64,000 nt of DNA, taken from Emticicia sp. 21SJ11W-3 (GTDB taxonomy: Bacteria > Bacteroidota > Bacteroidia > Cytophagales > Spirosomataceae). The translations under genes and the position numbers were made by a program. This document shows positions 49,508 through 53,277 of the stretch, piece by piece. The DNA is taken from positions 1,674,001 through 1,738,000 of the forward strand of contig NZ_CP092074.1 of NCBI RefSeq assembly GCF_024138715.1, written 5' to 3'. The notes beneath the pieces were generated by a model that was not told the DNA's origin, did no database searches, and was given only the letters and a program-made list of their open reading frames with translations. The number at the start of each line of letters is the position of its first letter. The first letter of the stretch is position 1.

Positions 49508-49541
49508 TTTGGATAATAGAAAATAAAATCCGCTATCTTTG
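49508..49541 (+). promoter_or_regulatory. Strong promoter of the small-ORF/tRNA-like locus
   Basis: TTTG at 49508-49511 and TATCTTTG at 49534-49541, spacing 22. The sequence after it (CAGTGCAAAAA) resembles the tRNA promoters in this window. Confidence 0.75.
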
Positions 49542-49680: not shown

Positions 49681-49714
49681 AAAGCCCGGCATTCTTGGAA
49701 AGTCGGGCTTTTTT
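49681..49714 (+). terminator. Terminator 1 in RNA-repair leader
   Basis: AAAGCCCGGC / GTCGGGCTTT (one G-T), then TTT. It lies between the 31-aa and 55-aa ORFs. Confidence 0.82.
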
Positions 49715-49913: not shown

Positions 49914-49938
49914 ATTTGTTCTGAACTGAACAACAGCA

Positions 49939-49983
49939 TAAGCCCGGCCTCTGTTACTAACGAGGCCGGGCTTATTGTTTTTT
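49939..49983 (+). terminator. Terminator 2 in RNA-repair leader
   Basis: TAAGCCCGGCCTC pairs perfectly with GAGGCCGGGCTTA (13 bp), then a T-rich tail. It shares the AAGCCCGG core with terminator 1. The tRNA-like array begins 29 bases later. Confidence 0.88.
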
Positions 49984-50011
49984 AGCCCTCTTCAAATTAG
50001 CTGTGATTGGT

Positions 50012-50082
50012 GGAACATTGGTGAAATGGTTATCACGTTACCCTGGCAGGGTAATTTATGGGTTCGAGTCCCGTATGTTTCG
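50012..50082 (+). tRNA. Complete tRNA cloverleaf, anticodon GGC (Ala-type anticodon)
   Basis: Acceptor GGAACAT with ATGTTTC (one G-T), D stem GTGA/TCAC with GG in the loop, anticodon stem TTACC/GGTAA with loop CTGGCAG (T33, anticodon GGC), 3-base variable region, T arm ATGGG-TTCGAGT-CCCGT, discriminator G, no encoded CCA. The anticodon reads alanine, but the G3-U70 alanine identity pair is absent (A3-T70), so charging identity is doubtful. After the discriminator, GAAATGC at 50088-50094 can also pair with the 3' acceptor strand (4 Watson-Crick plus 2 wobble), echoing the permuted neighbours. Confidence 0.7.
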
Positions 50083-50131
50083 CGATAGAAATGCAATTGA
50101 ACCTGATGAGGGTTTCTGTATAGCCCCATAG

Positions 50132-50152
50132 TATTGGTTTGCAATACCAATA
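50132..50152 (+). ncRNA. 7-bp hairpin with loop TTGCAAT in the tRNA-like array
   Basis: TATTGGT pairs perfectly with ACCAATA around the 7-base loop TTGCAAT. As an anticodon arm it would read GCA (Cys); as a T arm the loop is TTCGAAT with its centre inverted. Bases 50083-50172 otherwise lack a D arm. GGGT (50110-50113) can pair with GCCC (50123-50126). Best described as a structured spacer of the array. Confidence 0.4.
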
Positions 50153-50172
50153 TGCTGTCAGTTAAGTTTCTA

Positions 50173-50252
50173 TTGTACGATTCTGTGTGTTGAAGGTTCG
50201 AATCCTTCTTCCTCGCAAGGAATAGCTCAATGGCAGAGCAACAGAACCAAAT
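50173..50252 (+). ncRNA. Circularly permuted tRNA-like element (beta)
   Basis: The order is 3' half then 5' half. Anticodon 3' strand TTCTGT (50181-50186), 5-base variable region GTGTT, T arm GAAGG-TTCGAAT-CCTTC, acceptor TTCCT, tetraloop CGCA (50214-50217), acceptor AGGAA (50218-50222), TA, D arm GCTC-AATGGCA-GAGC, A, anticodon 5' strand ACAGAA (50241-50246). ACAGAA/TTCTGT is a perfect 6-bp stem at exactly the positions expected of a tRNA. T8, G10-C25, A14, G18-G19, A21, purine 26, G53-C61 and the T-loop consensus are all kept, so the elbow should fold. There is no discriminator or CCA: the acceptor end is closed and the open ends lie at the anticodon loop. The loop part CCAAAT follows the 5' strand. 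Confidence 0.65.
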
Positions 50253-50320
50253 GCAGGTTCGAATCCTGCCTGGCTCGTGAGGGTCTGTGGCGAAATGGTA
50301 ACGCAATGGATAATTTATCC
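50253..50320 (+). ncRNA. Second permuted tRNA-like element (gamma), GNRA-capped
   Basis: T arm GCAGG-TTCGAAT-CCTGC, acceptor CTGGCTC (50270-50276), GTGA (a GNRA tetraloop, 50277-50280), acceptor GGGTCTG (50281-50287; 6 of 7 pairs including two wobbles), TG, D arm GCG-AAATGGTAA-CGC. The anticodon arm is poor: TGG (50307-50309) can pair with CCA (50247-50249), or GGATAATTTATCC (50308-50320) folds on itself. Same permuted order as the preceding element, with a different closing loop. Confidence 0.5.
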
Positions 50321-50338
50321 TACTAACAAAACCATCAG

Positions 50339-50381
50339 TCTGAAATTATTCTGGCGTTTTCTCTGGAAAACGCAGTTCAGA
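50339..50381 (+). ncRNA. Structured hairpin between array and slipin gene
   Basis: GCGTTTTC-TCTG-GAAAACGC (50354-50373) is a perfect 8-bp stem, enclosed by a second helix TCTGAA (50339-50344) with TTCAGA (50376-50381). A frame open from 50327 to the TAA at 50567 covers it but has no ATG, GTG or TTG near its beginning. An AGGAGG at 50395-50400 is not followed by a usable start. Confidence 0.45.
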
Positions 50382-50602
50382 AAAGCCAGAAAAGAGGAGG
50401 ATACCGATACACAGAAGTAATTGCTTTGTTGTCTGAAGGCCATCATACGCCAGCCGGATTGATGCACCGGTTGAAAGGAACAACCGCCTGTTCAGGGTCC
50501 AAGGTCAACAAACCAGTTATTAAAGTTTATCTTAATCTGATTTCCGTTTCAAAGAATGGAATAACGTAAGACTGATTTTTAACCATGTAATTATTTAAAA
50601 AA

Positions 50603-51697
50603 ATGAAAAGGATAAGAGTAAATGCCAATCAATTCGGGTTGGTTTTGAAAGACGAGGCTTTTATGCAATTGCTTGAAAAAGGTGTATACACCTTCTGGGG
50701 AAGAGAAGAAGTCTATCTTTACAATAAAGGAACAGCTTTTAATGCCCCAATAGAATTGAACGCATTATTGCAACACGCCGAAGTAGCCGATGCTTTAGAG
50801 GTAATTGAAGTAAAAGATAACGAGTTGGCCGTTCAGTTTGAAGACAATCGTTTCTTAACTGTGCTCGGAGCGGGTAAATATGCGTTCTGGAAAGGTATTA
50901 AAAACTATACCTACATCATGGCAGACATCAGCAAGATTGAGATTACTGAGCCGCTCAGCATTCAGTTAATCAGTTCTAAATTATTGCCTTATGTGAGAGT
51001 TCATGTAGTTGAGACTTACGAAAAAGGTGTTTTGATTGTGGGTGGAAAATTTGCCGGTATTCTTAACGGAGGTACTTATTACTGGTGGAAAAACAGCATC
51101 AGTATTCAGGTTGCCAAAGCTGATATGCGGAATTTACAATTAGAGGTTTCCGGACAGGAAATTCTTACTAAAGACAAAGCCAACATCCGGTTAAATGGGG
51201 TTGTTCAATACCGTATCACTGATATTGTAAAGGCTTTGTATGAAAACAAGGACTGCGACAGGCAAGTTTATATTTTACTCCAATTAGCCTTGAGGGAGTA
51301 TATCGGAGGATTAACCCTCGATGAGTTGTTGGATAAAAAAGATAGCATCGGTGAGTTTATCATGAAAAGTGCTTCGACAAAAGTAGCTGATTTAGGTATT
51401 GAAATCAGGAGCTTTGGTATCCGTGACATTATCCTACCAGGAGACATGAAAGACATCATGAACCAGGTATTGATGGCTGAGAAAAAAGCGCAGGCGAACA
51501 TTATTATGCGGAGGGAAGAAACCGCTTCGATGCGTAGCTTGTTGAACACTGCCAAATTGATGGAAGAAAACGAAACCTTGTGGAAATTGAAAGAGATGGA
51601 GTATGTGGAGAAAATTGCAGACAAAATCAATAACATTTCGGTTTCTGGTAACGGTCAAATCTTGGATCAATTGAAGCAGATTTTTGTGAAAAATTGA
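50603..51697 (+). CDS. Slipin/SPFH (band 7) protein
   Basis: 364 residues. The SPFH domain occupies the middle (VHVVETYEKGVLIVGGKFAGILNGG, then LTKDKANIRLNGVVQYRITD and IRSFGIRDIILPGDMKDIMN, the latter typical of slipins), followed by a helical C-terminus (MRREETASMRSLLNTAKLME). Ordinary slipins have an N-terminal membrane hairpin; here the first ~100 residues are soluble and look like a duplicated beta module (NQFGLVLKDEAFMQLLEKGV). Usually SPFH proteins form ring scaffolds at membranes. It lies 47 bases ahead of rtcB on the same strand, with the tRNA-like array upstream, suggesting a scaffold for the RNA repair enzyme. Confidence 0.85.
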   Translation: MKRIRVNANQFGLVLKDEAFMQLLEKGVYTFWGREEVYLYNKGTAFNAPIELNALLQHAEVADALEVIEVKDNELAVQFEDNRFLTVLGAGKYAFWKGIKNYTYIMADISKIEITEPLSIQLISSKLLPYVRVHVVETYEKGVLIVGGKFAGILNGGTYYWWKNSISIQVAKADMRNLQLEVSGQEILTKDKANIRLNGVVQYRITDIVKALYENKDCDRQVYILLQLALREYIGGLTLDELLDKKDSIGEFIMKSASTKVADLGIEIRSFGIRDIILPGDMKDIMNQVLMAEKKAQANIIMRREETASMRSLLNTAKLMEENETLWKLKEMEYVEKIADKINNISVSGNGQILDQLKQIFVKN

Positions 51698-51744: not shown

Positions 51745-53277
51745 ATGGAAACAACTATTTCATTAGAAGAAATATTAGTATTGGGAAACATCCCTGAAAA
51801 CCTGCATGGAGTTTTCATGAGAATCGCCAATGGGCTCATTCAAAAAGCGGAATACCCCAAAGAAAAAGTGTTAAGACTTTTTGCAGAGATGCTGGCAAAT
51901 CCGAAGAAATTTGCCAATTCAAAAAACAAAGTTACTAATCTGGCAAAAGAGCTTTATCTGTTGCAAAAACAAGGCAATAAAGTGGAACTTTCAGAAGAAG
52001 GAAAAACGTACATGCCTGAAGAGATTCCACATTTTGCAATAGATAAAAAGGAGAAACAAAAAGAAGGCATGTTTCAATTAGCGACTGCCTCAATACCTTA
52101 TAAAATATATGGTGCAGAACATATAGAAGAGGGAGCCATAGCACAAATGGAAACAGCCATGAGCCTGCCTGTGGCAGTAGCAGGCGCATTAATGCCCGAT
52201 GCGCATCAGGGTTACGGCTTACCTATCGGGGGCGTACTTGCTACTACTGCCAATACGGTTATACCTTATGCAGTAGGTGTAGATATTGCCTGCCGCATGT
52301 GCCTTTCAGTATTTGATTTACCCGGTGATTTTTTTAAACGCCAACCCGGCTTGCTAAAAAAAGCATTGGTTGAAAACACAAAATTCGGTATGGGTGGAGA
52401 AACTGCTCATAAATTTGATGAAACCATAATGGACAAAGCCGAATGGCAAGCCACAAAAATAATCAGAGACCTGAAAGATAAAGCCTACCGACAATTGGGT
52501 ACATCTGGCACGGGTAATCACTTTGTGGAGTGGGGAATTGTTGAGGTATTTGCCGAAGATGATTTGCTGGGAATACTCAAAGGTGAATATCTGGCTTTGT
52601 TGTCTCATTCAGGCTCTAGAGGTTTTGGTGGAGCAGTTGCTAACTATTACTCACAAATTGCCAGACAAAAAACCAAATTGCCAAAAGAAGCGGCCCATCT
52701 GGCCTGGCTGGACATGAATACTGAAGAGGGGCAGGAATACTGGATAGCCATGAATCTGGCAGGTGATTACGCTTCGGCTAACCATCATGAAATACATAAG
52801 AAGATAGCAAAGATGATAGGTGAGAAGCCTATAAAAATGGTTGAGAACCACCATAACTTTGCATGGAAAGAGGTATTGGCCGATGGTACTGAAGTGATAG
52901 TCCACCGAAAAGGGGCTACTCCGGCAGGGCGCAACGATTTGGGGATTATCCCCGGCTCTATGACAGACCCCGGCTTTGTAGTAAGAGGAAAAGGTGAGGC
53001 AGAGGCTCTCAATTCGGCTTCGCACGGGGCAGGGCGATTGATGTCGAGAAAAAAAGCTTTGAGCTCTGTTACCAACAGCGCCTTAAAGAAAGTGCTGGCC
53101 GAAAAAAATGTGTACCTGATTGGCGGAGATTTAGATGAAGCGCCTATGGTTTACAAAAATATTGAAGCCGTGATTGCCTCGCAAACTGAATTAGTTGACG
53201 TATTGGCTAAGTTTACCCCAAAAATTGTAAGAATGGCTGATGCCCAAACCACCAGAAAAGAAGGACGGGAGGATTAA
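51745..53277 (+). CDS. rtcB: RNA-splicing ligase RtcB
   Basis: 510 residues. Joins RNA 3'-phosphate or 2',3'-cyclic phosphate ends to 5'-OH ends using GTP and Mn. The guanylylated histidine is H427 in SASHGAGRLMSR. Metal ligands are visible as D180 and C183 (GVDIACRM), H259 (GTGNHFVEWG) and H288 (LLSHSGSRG); HRKGATPAG lies at 387. A ~110-residue N-terminal helical extension precedes the core (MPDAHQGYGLPIGG from 150). No RtcA cyclase, RtcR regulator or archease is adjacent. Partnered instead with a slipin and tRNA-like RNAs, whose open ends at the anticodon match the natural lesion that RtcB seals. Confidence 0.93.
   Translation: METTISLEEILVLGNIPENLHGVFMRIANGLIQKAEYPKEKVLRLFAEMLANPKKFANSKNKVTNLAKELYLLQKQGNKVELSEEGKTYMPEEIPHFAIDKKEKQKEGMFQLATASIPYKIYGAEHIEEGAIAQMETAMSLPVAVAGALMPDAHQGYGLPIGGVLATTANTVIPYAVGVDIACRMCLSVFDLPGDFFKRQPGLLKKALVENTKFGMGGETAHKFDETIMDKAEWQATKIIRDLKDKAYRQLGTSGTGNHFVEWGIVEVFAEDDLLGILKGEYLALLSHSGSRGFGGAVANYYSQIARQKTKLPKEAAHLAWLDMNTEEGQEYWIAMNLAGDYASANHHEIHKKIAKMIGEKPIKMVENHHNFAWKEVLADGTEVIVHRKGATPAGRNDLGIIPGSMTDPGFVVRGKGEAEALNSASHGAGRLMSRKKALSSVTNSALKKVLAEKNVYLIGGDLDEAPMVYKNIEAVIASQTELVDVLAKFTPKIVRMADAQTTRKEGRED

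Follow-up and report, generated by a model that had tools for sequence, protein, structure and literature searches.

A predicted structured RNA with two tandem, circularly permuted tRNA-like units located 5′ of slipin genes in many Bacteroidota

The locus studied here lies within a 64,000-nucleotide stretch of the genome of Emticicia sp. 21SJ11W-3 (contig NZ_CP092074.1, positions 1,674,001 to 1,738,000), referred to as the window, and the genes and RNA parts described below are all on its + strand. A tRNA gene called as tRNA-Ala GGC (50012–50083) directly precedes the RNA that is our subject, and the RNA in turn adjoins a gene for slipin, an SPFH/Band 7 protein (50603–51697), which stands between it and the gene for an RtcB RNA ligase (51745–53277). 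Solved RtcB has Cys, Asn-His and His motifs, which we take to be catalytic; these could be aligned and were kept in the window protein. Pfam analysis of the window genes on either side identified a Clp protease and a NUDIX protein, and PADLOC gave no match for slipin or RtcB. A phage origin of slipin was considered and set aside, as no relative was confirmed in one viral-contig scan. In Pseudomonas aeruginosa, too, the rtc locus has been observed to contain an SPFH gene (PMC13086221).

The original prediction, made for 50173–50252, was of a tRNA-like RNA with its parts in permuted order, closed at the acceptor and open at the anticodon, and this was borne out at 50181–50246 by direct reading, by a 62-locus alignment and by a match to the Rfam YrlA model. 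Read 5′ to 3′, this unit (unit 1) begins with TTCTGT (50181–50186), the first strand of a helix at the anticodon position, followed by a 5-nt variable region (50187–50191), the T arm (50192–50208), and an acceptor of five pairs formed by TTCCT (50209–50213) and AGGAA (50218–50222) around the cap loop CGCA (50214–50217). It then continues with UA at 50223–50224, equivalent to tRNA positions 8 and 9 (U8-A9), the D arm (50225–50239), one further base, and ACAGAA (50241–50246), which pairs with TTCTGT. The order of parts is rotated relative to that of a tRNA, and both helices, the CGCA loop and the 5-base variable region that had been described are present, at the coordinates given.

A second permuted unit (50253–50304), and the larger RNA to which both belong, had been missed: the locus holds not a single unit but two in tandem. 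Unit 2, identified by the alignment, the Rfam YrlA model and the covariance model described below, consists of a T arm (50253–50269), acceptor strands at 50270–50276 and 50281–50287 that surround GTGA and contain one U-U mismatch, and a D arm (50290–50304). Direct reading showed it to be followed by the remnant of an anticodon arm, GGAT/ATCC with a 5-nt loop (50308–50320).

The minimum free energy fold of 50173–50252 was the permuted structure; its z score was only −1.14, with 22 of 200 shuffles equally stable, and for this reason the single-sequence fold was not used as proof. When the bases outside the T and D arms of unit 1 were shuffled, both permuted helices arose at the same offsets in 19 of 400,000 shuffles.

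Homologous loci were fetched with the downstream slipin protein, of which the best 80 of 335 were taken, giving 81 loci with the window. A strict pattern requiring a correctly spaced pair of T arms was present in 62 of the 81 (the other 19 had no strict pair), and these 62 were aligned with MAFFT blind to structure and tested against the named structure of 38 pairs. The permuted structure was paired in 90.8% of cells, compared to 68.1% when shuffled and 39–48% in slid versions, with double changes at 34 of the 38 pairs (571 double-changed cells versus 168 in shuffles) and covariation covering eight helices. The original prediction had pointed to compensatory changes in homologues as a check on the two permuted stems of unit 1, and these were found in both: the acceptor was 92.8% paired and the anticodon-position helix 76.2% paired, each with double changes at six of six pairs. 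Within the latter helix, the four inner pairs formed in 59–60 of 61–62 rows, the next in 34 of 61 and the outermost in 9 of 61, and the anticodon-stem geometry, with a 5-nt variable region and one base after the D stem, was exact in most aligned loci. Across the same 62 loci, the unit 2 acceptor (five pairs tested) was 83.8% paired and its anticodon arm 88.1% paired, with double changes at all five pairs of each. RNAalifold, run unguided, predicted 31 pairs, 28 of them with double changes and all within the arms of the permuted units; it recovered both permuted helices of unit 1 and left out the D arm of unit 2. As judged by this covariation, the permuted fold of both units and their tandem order are real.

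A row of ordinary tRNA genes can imitate a permuted order, as the T arm of one gene is followed by the D arm of the next, and the RNA might accordingly be the debris of such genes. Were a single ordinary tRNA to contain the unit 1 D arm and the unit 2 T arm, the acceptor strands on either side of these should pair with one another; the AGGAA strand and the 3′ acceptor strand of unit 2 were paired in 50.5% of cases, compared to 49.6% in shuffles, which is chance. As the acceptor strands covary locally instead, an origin as tandem-tRNA debris was refuted for the 62 aligned loci.

For wider searches we used R1, a covariance model of both units built from 35 sequences, the window among them. R1 matched the window at 50181–50324 with 115.8 bits, the window being one of the model's own sequences, and it scored at least 78 bits 5′ of slipin in 71 of the 81 loci, including the 35 model sequences that match by construction. 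The ten remaining loci (L004, L005, L019, L028, L045, L048, L063, L064, L073 and L080) had a weaker or partial match, and L004 and L005, two of the three closest relatives, were without a recognizable unit 1. In an unbiased scan of 296 genomes of the phylum, slipin was the following gene, on the same strand, for all of the ten best matches (at least 102 bits, the genome studied included). The two genomes that came after these (82.1 and 80.9 bits) were matched in tRNA arrays, and no slipin lay within 1.5 kb of the match. An R1 match at an E value of 0.001 was obtained in 291 of the 296 genomes, and the many weak ones among these we took to be cross-matches to ordinary tRNAs, a check with ARAGORN having covered some of the loci returned. 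Ordinary tandem tRNAs did cross-match R1, with up to 63.5 bits among the slipin loci (L038), and the second-best match in the genome studied (53.8 bits) was a tandem tRNA-Lys pair. The weakest slipin-linked scores, at 78–82 bits, are overlapped by those of the two tRNA arrays in the scan; however, most slipin-linked scores were far above any tandem-tRNA match, with a maximum of 135.2 bits, and we give almost no credence to tandem-tRNA debris as an explanation of the RNA. Slipin protein matches, with weak ones counted, were obtained in 111 of 200 genomes of the family, many of these being distant SPFH proteins.

We also considered whether the units are circularly permuted tRNA genes that are processed to functional tRNAs, as in algae and archaea. 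As in those genes, the 3′ half comes before the 5′ half, and several of the known genes have their junction in the anticodon loop, with intervening sequences of 1–74 bases (PMC3978253), so that a short loop alone does not exclude a gene of this kind. The algal and archaeal genes, however, mature into tRNAs, whereas here the acceptor is capped, with a UUCG or GNRA-like loop in several loci, and has five pairs in the window, and no CCA stands beside the acceptor strand. Only a few bases follow the anticodon-position strand of unit 1 before unit 2 begins, leaving no room for an anticodon loop. In addition, the tRNA splicing endonuclease is not known from bacteria. Together these features make processing to functional tRNAs very unlikely.

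The nearest known relative of the units is the bacterial Y RNA YrlA. The consensus of the Rfam YrlA family (RF02553) has the T arm before the D arm and a capped acceptor, and in the window it matched unit 1 at 50184–50245 (34.3 bits, E = 1.3e-5 in the 751 bases searched; model positions 23–87 of 114) and unit 2 at 50252–50304 (18.8 bits, E = 0.39; model positions 30–81 of 114). Both matches were below the 69-bit gathering cut-off and were confined to the tRNA-like module, the YrlA basal stem (model positions 1–22 and 88–114) being unmatched. In seven other loci the best YrlA score was 41.2 bits, none being over the cut-off, and the model matched unit 1 in all five of the seven that have a unit 1 (L003, L009, L016, L075 and L082). 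One further match, at L005:1364-1475, was rejected as a separate YrlA: it reached 33.3 bits over the full model yet overlapped tRNA-Met and tRNA-Val. As two ordinary tandem tRNAs can reach this score, a Rfam YrlA score alone proves little, and the identity of the units rests on covariation. YrlA searches in tRNA arrays need the same caution. At gathering level, Rfam identified three ordinary tRNAs in the window and nothing else. Below it, the Rfam tRNA model called a false tRNA that joined the unit 1 D arm to the unit 2 T arm (50223–50269; 26.6 bits), and a similar false tRNA at L016:3604-3664 scored 38.2 bits, over the cut-off of 29; annotation pipelines may consequently record a spurious tRNA across the two units.

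The original prediction had been aware of no described bacterial array beside rtcB, and on this point it is preceded. The bacterial Y RNA in structure 6CU1 has been described as a circular permutation with respect to tRNA (PMC13355120), and YrlA is found in the Salmonella rsr-yrlBA-rtcBA operon (Hughes et al. 2020, PMC7790460), so that neither the topology nor the company of rtcB is new. Like YrlA, the RNA described here has its T arm before its D arm, an acceptor closed by a loop and an attachment through the anticodon position, and as in the Salmonella RNA repair operons (rtcBA, rsr-yrlBA-rtcBA) RtcB occurs together with a tRNA-mimic RNA (PMC7790460). Unlike YrlA, it has two units in tandem, with an anticodon arm on the second in the majority of relatives, it has no match to the basal part and no score above the cut-off in the window, and it is part of a larger RNA 5′ of slipin, in a genome in which no Ro60 gene was found; unlike in rsr-yrlBA-rtcBA, slipin separates the RNA from rtcB. 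What is new relative to YrlA is the tandem arrangement, the anticodon arm of unit 2, the linkage to slipin and the frequent failure to find Ro60, the topology itself being known. We found no description of a slipin-linked tandem RNA in the parts of the literature that the search reached; Chen 2014, Burroughs and Aravind 2016 or Wang 2018 may contain one.

A further comparison is with tmRNA, which includes permuted two-piece forms: like it, our RNA is large and in part tRNA-like, and in relatives it has a likely pseudoknot. Neither ARAGORN nor Rfam at gathering level identified a tmRNA in the window, and the Rfam scan of the seven other loci gave one partial tmRNA match of 18 positions (L075, 17.4 bits).

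The RNA could be an ordinary bacterial Y RNA that is partnered with Ro60. In YrlA, according to a review, the basal stem holds Rsr and the tRNA-like domain binds PNPase, and Y RNAs are described as Ro60 tethers (PMC8394870). The permuted module is the same; in three Emticicia relatives (L003–L005) a Ro60 gene ends 0.6–0.9 kb 5′ of slipin, that of L003 (L003:1550-3199) having been tested with Pfam; and L082, from a genome with Ro60, matched the whole YrlA model (positions 1–114) with 39.1 bits. On the other hand, a search for Ro60 (the TROVE domain) gave no match in the single-contig genome studied, and of 49 relatives searched 10 had a match and 39, some of them draft assemblies, had none. The YrlA matches in the window are partial and under the gathering score, and L003 and L004 hold, apart from the slipin-linked RNA, another that is YrlA-like and capped by UUCG (L003:779-870 and L004:727-792). 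We regard an ordinary Y RNA as improbable. The simplest history would be that the Y RNA module joined a slipin-linked RNA that no longer needed Ro60.

The original prediction further proposed that unit 1 mimics a tRNA nicked in its anticodon loop, as a substrate or bait for RtcB, perhaps in circularized form. The exact anticodon-stem geometry of unit 1 in most aligned loci and the position of rtcB beside slipin in the window are in keeping with this proposal. The open ends of unit 1, however, run on into conserved flanking RNA, at the place where the YrlA model has its basal stem. The proposed link to RtcB was also looser than that to slipin, which follows the RNA in all ten of the best scan genomes: by tblastn, rtcB was found in 54 of the 80 slipin-fetched loci and not in 26 (contig ends not being allowed for), and in three of the nine stretches around the best scan matches other than our own, leaving six without it. 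In the 22 genomes examined that lacked rtcB at the locus (16 of the 26 slipin-fetched and all six from the scan), RtcB was matched elsewhere in 19 and not at all in three. From these gene neighborhoods, the constant partner of the RNA appears to be slipin more than RtcB, and we consider it decidedly improbable that unit 1 is an RtcB substrate or bait. Other neighbors identified by tblastn in the 80 loci were RlaP-type proteins (14 and 15 loci with two queries), a WYL regulator (24 loci) and Ro60 (three loci).

The two units, tandem mimics of the YrlA type, are the core of what is probably a structured RNA of about 0.4–0.5 kb that in many Bacteroidota occupies the 5′ part of the slipin(-rtcB) locus. 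On the 5′ side is a structured element, A (50084–50174), that is conserved in relatives; RNAalifold of 35 loci gave it two hairpins with 16 pairs, 11 of which had double changes, and its closing helix, GATAGAAA/TTTCTATT, was assigned outside the RNAalifold result, in part by inspection. On the 3′ side is element B (50334–50576), which is enclosed by ATCAGTCT (50334–50341) and AGACTGAT (50569–50576), followed by TTTT, and ends 26 bases 5′ of the slipin start. Across the 62 loci the long-range duplex of element B had a mean energy of −48.1 kcal/mol within loci versus −37.8 kcal/mol between loci, a mean effect only, as 27% of loci were beyond the 5th percentile of between-locus pairs and base composition could contribute. 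When the whole leader was folded to a consensus, using the 44 of the 62 loci in which it is shorter than 640 bases, the known arms and the element A hairpins accounted for nearly everything predicted.

Several observations were made in the region 5′ of the RNA. The tRNA at this place was called Asp(GTC) in L003–L005 and Ala(GGC) in the window, possibly reflecting an anticodon change, and tRNA gene arrays preceded the RNA in many relatives, with up to 13 genes (L036, L038 and L050) among 50 loci scanned. Terminator-like hairpins with T runs lie at 49683–49712 and 49938–49985, between clpP and the tRNA, and 5′ of both, near 49534, is TATCTTTG, a possible Bacteroidota −7 element. The Bacteroidota −7 motif is TAnnTTTG. 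This motif was present 5′ of the RNA in one of 71 loci, compared to 7.3 in shuffles, which indicates that there is no common promoter of the TAnnTTTG form. A palindrome, TACGCA-N7-TGCGTA or close to it, was present 5′ of the RNA in ten of the 71 loci (L007, L008, L009, L010, L037, L040, L044, L057, L060 and L082); in nine of the ten a TTTG lay 32 bases from the palindrome start, and eight carried a gene from the cluster to which the WYL regulator of L008 belongs.

The position of the RNA raises the main rival to the reading that we favor, namely that it is a cis-acting leader, the 5′ untranslated region of slipin(-rtcB), which would switch expression when a tRNA or the mimic is cleaved. It is directly 5′ of slipin, on the same strand, in the ten best of 296 genomes and in 71 of 81 slipin-fetched loci, and element B reaches almost to the slipin start. 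Set against this, the closing helix of element B and the short T run that follows it could mark a 3′ end distinct from slipin, and a switch would not need as much as two nearly complete tRNA folds. A cis-acting leader is a serious possibility, although on balance an unlikely one.

The anticodon arm of unit 2 is degenerate in the window, compared to 5 bp and a 7-nt loop in most relatives. When the 71 loci with a full R1 match were searched for a hairpin with a seven-base loop after unit 2, an arm of five pairs was identified in 60, one of four pairs in ten and none in one. About ten of the 60 five-pair arms (those of L018, L029, L030, L032, L037, L043, L047, L057, L075 and L078) look like a neighboring hairpin, and counts are given below with and without them. 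U33 was present in 42 of the 60 arms (39 of 50 without the doubtful ones). A G at position 36 went with G at position 37 in 22 of 23 loops, unchanged without the doubtful arms, and a U at 36 with A at 37 in 14 of 15 (14 of 14); an A at 36 was mixed, with A at 37 in nine and G in six (seven and five). The combinations seen with G and U at position 36 are as expected of tRNAs, and the loops thus largely follow the tRNA rule for positions 36 and 37. Fisher p values on these counts overstate their independence, as the loci are related. The anticodon triplets were diverse, with 30 different ones among the 60 arms and 25 among the 50. A pseudoknot after unit 2 is likely in many relatives, 51 of 62 loci passing the cut-off of a pattern script, although many of these matches are elsewhere in position and the assignment rests on pattern and inspection, without a shuffle control. 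No counterpart was seen in the window, where the match of the script sits elsewhere and was judged unrelated. With its degenerate arm and no pseudoknot seen, a bait role for unit 2 would be weakest in the very genome studied.

The reading that we favor, albeit tentatively and at slightly less than even odds, is that the RNA acts in trans as a tRNA mimic in an RNA-damage response, usually without Ro60, in the role of a decoy, a sensor or a tether. As the acceptor ends are capped by short loops, the units would not be chargeable as they stand, and from this we infer that what they offer to proteins that bind tRNA is the elbow and the anticodon features. The occurrence of RtcB, RlaP, a WYL regulator and, in three loci, Ro60 around the RNA in various relatives suggests a neighborhood concerned with RNA damage. 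We speculate that the elbow and the anticodon loop of unit 2 bind proteins that handle tRNAs, such as an anticodon nuclease, a PNPase-like nuclease or a repair enzyme; that the bound RNA then serves as decoy, sensor or tether; and that slipin gathers the complex at the membrane. The anticodon position of unit 1 would be its point of attachment, just as the YrlA module joins its basal stem there. Hughes et al. 2020 (PMC7790460) report no YrlA fragments when an anticodon nuclease acts and suggest competitive inhibition of the nuclease. A more specific form of the trans role, in which the many anticodons of unit 2 bait or sense anticodon nucleases, the elbow of unit 1 addresses the repair or decay machinery and slipin anchors the whole as a Ro60-free decoy, is an attractive but doubtful proposal. 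If it is correct, the RNA would form a class of its own among tRNA mimics, one whose anticodon evolves to counter attackers.

The finding of a permuted module that is doubled, that has an anticodon arm and that often occurs without Ro60 indicates that tRNA mimicry may be separable from the Ro60 role, and the purpose of the mimicry itself becomes testable through a Ro60-free RNA. The spurious tRNA calls across the two units are a lesson for tRNA annotation. For the Bacteroidota, the slipin/RtcB loci gain a conserved candidate RNA partner, together with a covariance model by which more such RNAs may be found.
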